Assembly (NCBI GenBank): GCA_945881885.1
Contig: CAMCVI010000004.1
Coordinates: 62,001 to 126,000, forward strand
Direction of reading: 5' to 3'
Source: Chryseobacterium gleum
Lineage (GTDB): Bacteria > Bacteroidota > Bacteroidia > Flavobacteriales > Flavobacteriaceae
Length of the DNA stretch: 64,000 nt
Below are positions 28,404 to 38,522 of the stretch, piece by piece. The notes beneath the pieces were generated by a model that searched no databases, was not told the DNA's origin, and worked only from the letters and a program-made list of their open reading frames with translations. Positions within the stretch are counted from its first letter, which is position 1. Every line of letters starts with the position of its first letter. The position numbers were made by a program, and so were the translations under genes.

Positions 28404-29720
28404 ATGAGCATAAAATTAAAATTAACTATTGTAAGTTTTTTACAATTATTTGTTTGGGGCGCTTGGCTTACCACTTTGGCGAGTTATGGATTTGGCTTTA
28501 AACAATGGTCTGGTGCAGAGTTTGGAATTGTGTTTTCAACTTTAGGTTTGGGTTCCATAATTATGCCACCTATATCTGGAATTATCGCAGATAAATATTT
28601 AAATTTAGAAAAATTATACGGCATCCATCATATTCTATATGGATTAATTTTACTTTTCTTGCCGGCCATTGATAGCCCTTCTACTTTCTTTTGGGTGTTA
28701 CTTGTAGGTATGATTTTTTATATGCCAACGTTATCTTTATCAAGTTCACTTTCTTTCGCCGTTTTAAAAAAATATAATTTTAATATCATTAAAGACTACC
28801 CGCCAATTCGAGTTTGGGGAACTATTGGTTTTATAGCTGCTATGTGGTGTACCAATTTGTTTAGTAATGTAAATCCGCCTTTTTCTTTCGGGATTGGAGT
28901 AGGAAAAGCCATTGCTGCTGTAACCAATATGCCAGTAGAATGCAACCAGTTTTATATGGCGTCTTTTTTCGCAATTGTATTGGGAATTTTCTCTTTCACT
29001 TTGCCTAAAATTGAACCAATAAAAGATGAAAGTAAAAACAAAACATTCTCTCAAATTTTTGGTTTAGATGCGTTTAAACTATTTAAAGAATCTAAAATGG
29101 CTATGTTTTTTATCTTTAGTATGTTTTTAGGAGCGGCTTTACAATTGACCAATATGTATGGCGAAACCTATATTAAAGATTTTGAAAACATTCCAAAATA
29201 TGCAGAAACTTTTGTAGTAAAATCGGCAAATATTGTGTTGTCTATTTCTCAAATTTCTGAAACTATATTTATTTTAGCCATTCCGTTTTTTTTACGACGA
29301 TATGGAATAAAAAAAGTAATGCTTTTCAGTTTAATTGCTTGGGTATTGCGTTTTGGTTTTTTCGCTTATGGCGATCCAATTGGCAGTTTATGGATGATCA
29401 TTATGTCGAATATCGTGTACGGATTGGCGTTTGACTTCTTCAATATTTCAGGTTCTTTATTTGTAGAAACCACAACCGATTCTAAAATCCGTTCCTCTGC
29501 ACAAGGATTATTTATGATGATGACCAACGGTTTCGGAGCAATCTTAGGAAGTTTGGGAAGTGGATTTTTAATTGACACCTATTTTACTACAACAAACGGA
29601 AAAGACTGGCATAACATTTGGCTAACATTTGCAGTTTATGCTTTAATCATTACTGTTGCATTTGCGGTATTATTTAAACACGAACACAATCCAAAAGACA
29701 TAGCATCATTTAGTCATTAA
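28404..29720 (+). CDS. Nucleoside:H+ symporter, NupG-type major facilitator
   Basis: A 438-residue MFS permease with 12 predicted membrane helices, beginning MSIKLKLTIVSFLQLFVWGAWLTTL. The NupG-family features LQLFVWGAWL, SIIMPPISGIIADKYLNLEKL and YPPIRVWGTIGFI are present. It imports nucleosides for salvage, which fits the nearby thyA and the deoxynucleoside kinase at 12.6 kb. Its stop codon is the base immediately before the left arm of a 28-bp inverted repeat that encloses the next gene. Probable operon with the bifunctional nuclease gene upstream. Confidence 0.9.
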   Translation: MSIKLKLTIVSFLQLFVWGAWLTTLASYGFGFKQWSGAEFGIVFSTLGLGSIIMPPISGIIADKYLNLEKLYGIHHILYGLILLFLPAIDSPSTFFWVLLVGMIFYMPTLSLSSSLSFAVLKKYNFNIIKDYPPIRVWGTIGFIAAMWCTNLFSNVNPPFSFGIGVGKAIAAVTNMPVECNQFYMASFFAIVLGIFSFTLPKIEPIKDESKNKTFSQIFGLDAFKLFKESKMAMFFIFSMFLGAALQLTNMYGETYIKDFENIPKYAETFVVKSANIVLSISQISETIFILAIPFFLRRYGIKKVMLFSLIAWVLRFGFFAYGDPIGSLWMIIMSNIVYGLAFDFFNISGSLFVETTTDSKIRSSAQGLFMMMTNGFGAILGSLGSGFLIDTYFTTTNGKDWHNIWLTFAVYALIITVAFAVLFKHEHNPKDIASFSH

Positions 29721-29748
29721 TTGGGTAAAAGGTTAAGGGTTTTTGGTA
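29721..29748. repeat. Left arm of 28-bp inverted repeat around the four-helix-bundle gene
   Basis: Matches the reverse complement of 30140-30167 at 26 of 28 positions, including an uninterrupted 18-bp core GGTTAAGGGTTTTTGGTA (29731-29748). It begins at the first base after the permease stop. The arm is itself made of heptamers. Confidence 0.85.
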
Positions 29749-29758
29749 AAAGGTTTTA
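29724..29758. repeat. Heptamer array, left of the four-helix-bundle gene
   Basis: Five uninterrupted 7-base units GGTAAAA, GGTTAAG, GGTTTTT, GGTAAAA, GGTTTTA. Each begins GGT while the other four positions vary. It overlaps the left inverted-repeat arm. Confidence 0.75.
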
Positions 29759-29780
29759 AAAGATAATTTTTTATTTCAGA

Positions 29781-30155
29781 ATGAGAAATTTTAGAGAATT
29801 AGATATTTGGAAAGAGAGTAGATTGCTTGTGGCTGCAACTTATATGATTATGAGGCAAATGCCAGACGATGAAAAGTTTGGATTGACTTCACAAATAAAA
29901 CGTTCTGTAATTTCTATTCCATCTAATATAGCTGAAGGATGTGCTAAAAGTTCAGATAAAGATTTATGTAGATTTTTAGAAATTAGCTTAGGTTCTTGTT
30001 TTGAATTAGAAACCCAATTAATGTTGTGTTCAGATATAAATTATTTAGATGAAAATATAGTTTCAAAACAAATTGAATCCATTCAAATACTTGAAAAAAG
30101 AATTGCCTCTTTTTTATCTTATTTAAGAAATAAACCGAATACCAAAAACCCTTAA
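29781..30155 (+). CDS. Four-helix bundle protein (23S rRNA intervening-sequence / S23 type)
   Basis: A 124-residue all-helical protein with family signatures FRELDIWKESRLLVAATY, SQIKRSVISIPSNIAEGCAKSSDKD and FLEISLGSCFELETQL. This family was first found encoded in intervening sequences within 23S rRNA genes and has no established function. Free-standing copies are common in Bacteroidota. Here it sits between the nucleoside permease gene and thyA inside a 28-bp inverted repeat. Its last codons (TKNP and stop) are formed by the right arm, so the C-terminus is repeat-derived. No own promoter was recognised. Acquired element rather than metabolic partner, by inference. Confidence 0.9.
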   Translation: MRNFRELDIWKESRLLVAATYMIMRQMPDDEKFGLTSQIKRSVISIPSNIAEGCAKSSDKDLCRFLEISLGSCFELETQLMLCSDINYLDENIVSKQIESIQILEKRIASFLSYLRNKPNTKNP

Positions 30156-30167
30156 CCCTATACCCAA
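30140..30167. repeat. Right arm of 28-bp inverted repeat
   Basis: Inverted copy of 29721-29748 (26 of 28 matches, 18-bp perfect core TACCAAAAACCCTTAACC). It overlaps the last codons and the stop of the four-helix-bundle gene. Transcribed RNA could fold into a long stem closing a loop of about 390 nt. Confidence 0.85.
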
Positions 30168-30182
30168 CACCTTAAACCCATA
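30141..30182. repeat. Heptamer array, right of the four-helix-bundle gene
   Basis: Six uninterrupted units ACCAAAA, ACCCTTA, ACCCTAT, ACCCAAC, ACCTTAA, ACCCATA, ending 3 nt before the thyA ATG. The unit ACCnnnn is the complement-strand counterpart of the GGTnnnn units on the left. Confidence 0.75.
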
Positions 30183-30185
30183 TAA

Positions 30186-31010
30186 ATGAGACAATATCAC
30201 GATTTAGTAAAACACGTATTAGCAAACGGAACTCAAAAAGGCGACCGAACAGGAACTGGAACCATTAGTGTTTTTGGTTACCAAATGCGTTTTGATTTAA
30301 GTGAAGGTTTTCCGATGGTTACCACTAAAAAGTTACATTTAAAATCAATTATTCACGAATTGCTTTGGTTTTTAAAAGGCGATACCAATATTGCCTATTT
30401 ACAAGAAAATGGCGTAAAAATTTGGGATGCTTGGGCAGATGAAAATGGTAATTTAGGACCAGTTTATGGACACCAATGGAGAAATTGGAACAGCGAAGAA
30501 ATTGATCAAATTACAGAATTAATCGAAACTTTAAAAACCAATCCGAATAGCCGTAGAATGTTAATTTCAGCTTGGAATCCTTCTGTTTTACCAGACACTA
30601 CCGTTTCTTTTTCGGAAAATGTGGCTAACGGAAAAGCAGCTTTGCCGCCTTGTCACGCGTTTTTTCAATTTTATGTTTCTGATGGAAAATTATCGTGTCA
30701 ATTGTACCAACGTAGTGCCGATATTTTCTTAGGCGTACCGTTTAACATTGCTTCGTATGCCTTATTTACGATGATGGTAGCACAAGTTTGTGGTTTAGAA
30801 GCGGGTGAGTTTATACACACTTTTGGTGACGCACATATTTACAACAATCATATAGAACAAGTGAATTTACAATTGAGTCGTGAACCAAGAAAATTACCAA
30901 TTATGAAATTGAACCCCAATGTAACCAACATTTTCGATTTCACTTTTGACGATTTCACGTTGGAAGGCTACGACCCGCACGAGCATATTAAAGGTGCGGT
31001 TTCTGTTTAA
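30186..31010 (+). CDS. thyA: Thymidylate synthase
   Basis: A 274-residue enzyme of normal length. The catalytic Cys lies in [12 protein letters not shown], the phosphate-binding region in [17 protein letters not shown] and SRRM, and the C-terminus HIKGAVSV is conserved. It methylates dUMP to dTMP with methylene-tetrahydrofolate and releases dihydrofolate, which the folA product at 31973 recycles. In many bacteria thyA and folA are adjacent; here a lipoprotein gene and about 960 nt separate them, consistent with a later insertion. Confidence 0.98.
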
Positions 31011-38436: not shown

Positions 38437-38440
38437 TTAT

Positions 38441-38514
38441 CAAGTCAAAAGTCGAATGTCTGAATATTTTCAGATTTTTTGGCTTTTGACTTTTGACTTT
38501 TAACTTTTGACTTG
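38441..38514. repeat. Bipartite heptamer array with inverted halves between fbaA and accD
   Basis: Left half AAGTCAA, AAGTCGA, ATGTCTG; right half CTTTTGA, CTTTTGA, CTTTTAA, CTTTTGA. The outer ends CAAGTCAAAAGT (38441-38452) and ACTTTTGACTTG (38503-38514) form a perfect 12-bp inverted repeat, with a small CTGAA/TTCAG stem inside. It ends 8 nt before the accD ATG and could fold at the accD ribosome binding region. Confidence 0.75.
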
Positions 38515-38522
38515 AAAAAATT

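Follow-up and report, generated by a model that had tools for sequence, protein, structure and literature searches.

We consider it fairly likely that the S23 gene between a nucleoside permease gene and thyA in the window (the whole stretch of 64,000 nucleotides that was analysed) belongs to a family of mobile cassettes that are very small and probably selfish, each made of an array of short units, an S23 gene and a reverse-complement array, with a step, which we infer, in which the units are recognised. The complete cassette occupies positions 29721..30167 (+ strand, 447 bp) and consists of a left, upstream arm (29721..29756, + strand), which is a G-rich array of the 7-nt units GGTAAAA/GGTTAAG/GGTTTTT, an ORF of 124 aa of the S23 / 23S-rRNA-IVP four-helix-bundle type (29781..30155, + strand), and a right, downstream arm (30132..30167, - strand) of the reverse-complement heptads CCCTTAACCCTATACCC. 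Similar units, CACCTTAAACCC, may extend beyond the right arm to about 30180. Both host genes lie outside the cassette on the + strand, namely a nucleoside:H+ symporter gene upstream (PF03825; 28404..29720) and thyA, encoding thymidylate synthase, downstream (PF00303; 30186..31010). The first-pass annotation had described a 28-bp inverted repeat at this place, and the arms it claimed are real, as 29721-29748 and 30140-30167 match at 26/28 positions with a perfect core of 18 bp. The left arm follows directly on the permease stop (the TAA ends at 29720), and the right arm covers the final S23 codons with the stop (30153-30155) and leaves 18 nt to the thyA ATG at 30186, both as had been described; even the passing mention of "two heptamer arrays" was correct in substance, the arms being runs of 7-nt units (GGTAAAA GGTTAAG GGTTTTT GGTAAAA and so on). 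Ungapped extension lengthens the arms to 36 nt at 86% complementarity (29721-29756 / 30132-30167), and their inverted-repeat score exceeds that of all 200 dinucleotide shuffles. The arms are paired in the predicted RNA fold of 29715-30180 (-109.6 kcal/mol, z -4.6, 0/100 shuffles as good). The ORF matches PF05635 (117 bits, cut-off 33.8) and TIGR02436 (111 bits, cut-off 24), its nearest solved structure is 2gsc (XCC0516), and it is the sole ORF within the cassette, which has no transposase of its own. The cassette gave no match to the PADLOC models of known anti-phage defence, and a search for a phage vehicle gave no hits.

S23 genes generally carry inverted arms. All six PF05635 genes in the genome that holds the window (G000, a draft like the related genomes) are enclosed by inverted arrays, and their six cassettes carry six different units (CTAAGnnn, AGCTnnn, TTAGAnnn, GGTnnnn at the thyA site, ATAGAnn, and a TTnAA type). 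Within the genus, the inverted flank match was significant (p<=0.05) at 99/115 S23 loci and above all 200 dinucleotide shuffles at 80/115, whereas direct repeats between the flanks reached p<=0.05 at merely 28/115. A score of 16 was attained by 5/5 S23 genes as against 4/223 other ORFs (90-220 aa; ~790 kb, two genomes). Outside the genus, arms were found at 17/25 Bacteroidota S23 loci and at 64/77 named S23 loci from other lineages; the other-lineage records with arms include some labelled Geothrix, Ignavibacteria, KSB1, Alphaproteobacteria and Clostridia, several of them metagenome bins, and cyanobacterial plasmids carry arms as well, in two cases between cas6 and cas4. In L361 and L363, both cyanobacterial plasmid loci, the cas6 and cas4 genes of a CRISPR operon flank S23 and its long heptad arrays, and a type I-D cas1d is annotated alongside in L363. 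S23 or "four helix bundle" genes were present in 194/248 of the Bacteroidota genomes sampled, with up to 17 PF05635 genes per genome. The first-pass annotation had proposed a search of other S23 genes and had allowed that they might lack inverted repeats, or that the pair beside thyA might be a coincidence; the arrays flank the other copies too, in the same genome, in the genus and in other lineages.

The arms at the genus loci have a median length of 34 nt, with autocorrelation peaks at lags 7, 8 and 14. AG is enriched 2.6-fold and CC depleted 5-fold in left arms, and AG/GG at 7-8 nt spacing amounts to 44% in arms vs 13% in ordinary gaps. Each left-arm unit of 7-8 nt holds one AG or GG, and its sequence varies between sites and matches within a cassette; the conserved feature of the unit is the repeated core, and the letters between cores pair poorly across the arms. 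The median distance is 3 nt from the upstream stop to the start of the left arm and 9 nt from the end of the right arm to the next start; at 55/99 significant loci, the right arm overlaps the S23 stop. S23 is co-directional with both neighbours at 107/115 loci (111/115 once inspected). Cassettes stand between groES and groEL, between gmk and nadD, between the halves of metH, and ahead of several other genes (hemB, tilS, pyrF, sdhB, cox15 and thyA), the gene names at these sites being our own reading of the translated neighbours.

The unit is cassette-specific, and S23 clade and unit type are inherited together. Beyond what the first-pass annotation had seen, every site has a different unit sequence, which goes with the clade of the S23 protein. 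A left arm is a better match to the right arm of its own cassette than to those of orthologues or other sites (16.5 vs 9.1). The preference over orthologues is pronounced at the NdpA site (z 7.5, n=35) and the RluA site (z 4.4, n=20), significant also at the hemB, fadA and tilS sites, and not significant at the groEL and nadD sites. At the NdpA site (35 genomes) the unit is either CTRAG or CARAG, and nearly all units of both arms change together (Spearman 0.93, n=34). A single switch between the two is needed on the S23 protein and DNA trees, as against 10-12 on the tree of the downstream gene and 8 on that of the upstream gene, and on the host-gene DNA trees at least 5 of those switches are forced by well-supported branches. 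A CARAG-type S23 with CARAG arms also stands ahead of cox15 (L125), a relocation from the NdpA site in which the unit was kept, and a TGTATA-type cassette occurs at two places in the fad operon. The thyA site of G066 has the orthologous S23, and both arms have changed jointly to GGTGAAG-type units. Across different sites the correlation between protein and unit was weak (Mantel 0.14, p=0.08), and the nearest S23 at another site carried the more similar arms in 72/93 cases.

Each cassette is gained, lost or swapped as a discrete whole, and its history is independent of that of the flanking genes. In the pair L009 and L118, the flanking genes show 96-100% identity as far as the stop codon on one side and again from the start codon on the other, against 55-73% for everything between; flanks with 97-100% identity surround S23 genes with only ~70% identity. 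The drop in identity is bounded by the stop and start codons, so the complete cassette has been exchanged, with its edges at the arms. Three sites that are filled in G000 are empty in G080, whose host DNA is 93-97% identical and which is the closest of the relatives sampled, and two of the three are also empty in the outgroup G089 and are therefore probably gains in G000. The thyA site in G080 has lost S23 and retains scraps of both arms, while at the empty metH junctions the arms are completely absent. S23-less sites were also found at groEL, and S23-less relatives retain the operon with its genes close together (mostly 10-85 nt). Empty and occupied site pairs differ in stretches at both edges, with no clear target-site duplication. 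The first-pass annotation had suggested a comparison with related genomes for empty sites and had proposed inserted DNA; such sites are present in close relatives (G080, G089; metH, groEL, thyA), and together with the inverted arrays elsewhere and the conflicting histories of cassettes and flanks they bear the proposal out, so that the cassette as a mobile IVS-like element is well supported. Against mobility, the S23 gene at a given site is often old and common to many species, and if ancient tandem cassettes were lost differentially, the outcome could look like exchange; L010 has kept a second S23 tail and arm.

As for the means of movement, profile searches of G000 gave 0 matches to PF00078 (reverse transcriptase) and 0 matches to Y1 transposase, and both were therefore dropped as required partners. 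A movement helper could have existed elsewhere, and same-site exchange could also result from transformation with recombination. Tandem scraps of a second S23 cassette, with an S23 tail and right arm in L010 and repeated right arms in L066, show duplication and decay. The metH gene is a single ORF of ~1250 aa in G018, G020, G040 and G106, and in nearly all other genomes of the genus it is divided at one and the same domain boundary. That S23 insertion split metH is not supported, as S23-less genomes are split at the identical point and four genomes have the gene fused. In L192, L194, L195, L196 and L198, the split junction has ~150-180 extra bases and a short ORF (MKN..F...SQRCWVCQYVS.SK.FWK..AKHYKRISNEL) in place of S23, a further kind of insert at this hot spot. 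The metH codons are unit-like, and the idea that the unit is copied from its target site was dropped because the same unit accompanies related S23 genes at other sites and the empty metH sites are without it.

Period-7/8 arrays were surveyed over ~390 kb of G000 and ~400 kb of G118 against a Markov null. S23-less arrays numbered ~8 per 47 kb of intergenic DNA in G000 vs ~1 expected, G118 was similar, and several of them pair as left and right arms. As S23-less period-7 arrays are common, the S23 protein is not strictly required by the arrays, and those without S23 may represent leftovers of cassettes, of the sort seen at thyA in G080, or non-autonomous copies. The window itself contains a heptad hairpin without S23 between co-directional genes at 38437-38522 (AAGTCAAAAGTC ... 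GGCTTTTGACTTTTGACTTTTAACTTTTGACTTG), a candidate remnant or non-autonomous copy. Elsewhere in G000, rlmH rather than S23 lies between inverted TTAGAnnn/TCTAAnnn arrays (L154:1163-1218 and 1693-1810, G000:C3), whose unit type is that of the genome's RluA-site S23 cassette. An ORF of 100 aa resembling GIY-YIG nucleases lies within a perfect 24-bp inverted repeat, GTCTTTGCGAGGCACGAAGCAATC (L153:13324-13626; G000:C3:153324-153626), and is possibly a member of a second, unrelated family of small genes with inverted repeats; strings similar to this repeat, attgcttcgttcctcgcaatgac, precede thyA in L050, L060 and L061.

The S23 protein is under purifying selection, as its dN/dS of about 0.11-0.21 is indicative of a maintained protein. 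S23 proteins have been described without known function, and that of Xanthomonas campestris as a homopentameric ring of four-helix bundles (PMC4990558). Each cassette fills the entire space between two co-directional host genes and is probably expressed by read-through from the gene upstream. In the mechanism that we propose, the S23 ring, which is probably pentameric as in 2gsc, would recognise the repeated unit of its own arms, with one protomer per unit over a run of about five units, and would draw both arms together. Such recognition would explain the joint change of all units in both arms with the protein, and a pentamer would agree numerically with arms of about five 7-nt units. More tentatively, and with appreciable doubt, we suggest that the cassettes may form a new class of minimal mobile element, in which a ring-forming four-helix-bundle protein would recognise the units of its own arms, protein and unit would co-diversify so that each cassette has its own address, and spread between the operons of many bacterial phyla would proceed with no transposase encoded by the element itself; the rRNA IVS would be one offshoot of this class.

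A different role for the arms, which the first-pass annotation had raised as RNA cut out of the mRNA and which we regard as unlikely, would be at the mRNA level, where they could pair in the polycistronic transcript and form a stem cut by RNase III, freeing the S23 message as in 23S rRNA IVSs; the stem would then make an insertion in an operon tolerable. The Coxiella IVS, which is 428 nt long and ends in a 28-bp stem cleaved by RNase III (PMC4990558), has the same protein family and a similar size, the stem at thyA is predicted to fold strongly (z -4.6), cassettes are nearly always co-directional with the host genes, and the arms co-vary, all of which would fit an intervening sequence. However, arm mismatches are not enriched for G.U-type over A.C-type (84 vs 140, with ~74 G.U-type expected from the table marginals, z about 1.4 by our own arithmetic, a non-significant excess close to the composition expectation) and give no clear sign that sense-strand pairing is selected, what is conserved is the unit core rather than the pairing of the letters between cores, and cleavage would divide the messages of essential operons (e.g., groES-groEL). 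Less probable still is a host regulatory module, in which S23 would be an RNA-binding regulator that acts at the right arm and controls the translation of the downstream gene and of itself. The short distance from the right arm to the next start (median 9 nt), the purifying selection on S23 and the conserved sites (e.g., groEL, hemB, nadD and tilS) speak for such a module, but presence is patchy, replacement at one site is repeated, and S23-less relatives keep the operon with a gap of mostly 10-85 nt. Moreover, the cassettes' own units are not enriched elsewhere in the genome (1.17 vs 1.05 hits) and are not over-represented among the S23-less arrays; a trans regulon is thus unsupported. That the arms match merely as static, vertically inherited heptad microsatellites of low complexity, with S23 as a bystander, is very improbable, since the S23-less period-7 arrays of the same genomes and the old age of many sites are outweighed by the rarity of such arms at other ORFs (merely 4/223), by arms that match within cassettes and not between them (16.5 vs 9.1), by the joint switching of S23 clade and unit type against the host tree, and by empty metH sites without arms.

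Among described systems, the closest known thing to the mobile cassettes is the S23-bearing 23S rRNA IVS (e.g., in Coxiella burnetii and Leptospira), which shares PF05635, a single ORF, a size of about 430-490 nt, a terminal inverted repeat, sporadic presence and a proposed horizontal origin (PMC4990558); its defining location, however, does not apply. The rRNA IVS sits in an rRNA helix, whereas the copy at thyA and the others stand between protein genes of operons, and the thyA-site cassette is for that reason not an rRNA IVS. The arms here are also arrays of 7-8 nt units, with the unit of each cassette tied to the S23 clade, and the ORF is maintained by selection, whereas it is decaying in the Coxiella IVS. 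Avd of the diversity-generating retroelements has a related four-helix-bundle fold and gives a weak NCBIfam match, but identity with Avd was rejected (20 bits vs a cut-off of 80, and no reverse transcriptase in G000). TAACTGA repeats, known from Beggiatoaceae, cyanobacteria and some Bacteroidetes (PMC4679880), and the cyanobacterial STRR are likewise intergenic arrays of 7-nt units, often just ahead of starts; these have been described as direct repeats of one unit, whereas here the unit varies, the arrays form inverted pairs, and S23 is enclosed. S23 is absent from the TAACTGA paper (PMC4679880), and no STRR paper that we found pairs the repeats with S23. MITE, IS and REP-RAYT elements share the short mobile unit and terminal inverted repeats, and S23-less paired arrays resemble non-autonomous copies. 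An IS or MITE was rejected, as the arms of different copies have no common sequence (six units in one genome) and the unit has no transposase, and REP/RAYT was rejected with 0 matches to Y1 transposase in G000. Open-access papers on S23 IVSs, heptamer repeats, STRR and Flavobacterium genomes gave no earlier description of S23 together with inverted arrays.

Few unexplained small genes are as common in Bacteroidota as those for S23, and the arms supply them with an anatomy, with their own repeated unit as a likely ligand, and with a lifestyle as exchangeable operon cassettes. Natural cassette swaps in near-identical hosts, in which protein and unit have changed together, make the recognition of the unit by the protein directly testable. 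The link to S23 may also account for part of the puzzling intergenic heptamer repeats in Bacteroidota and cyanobacteria.
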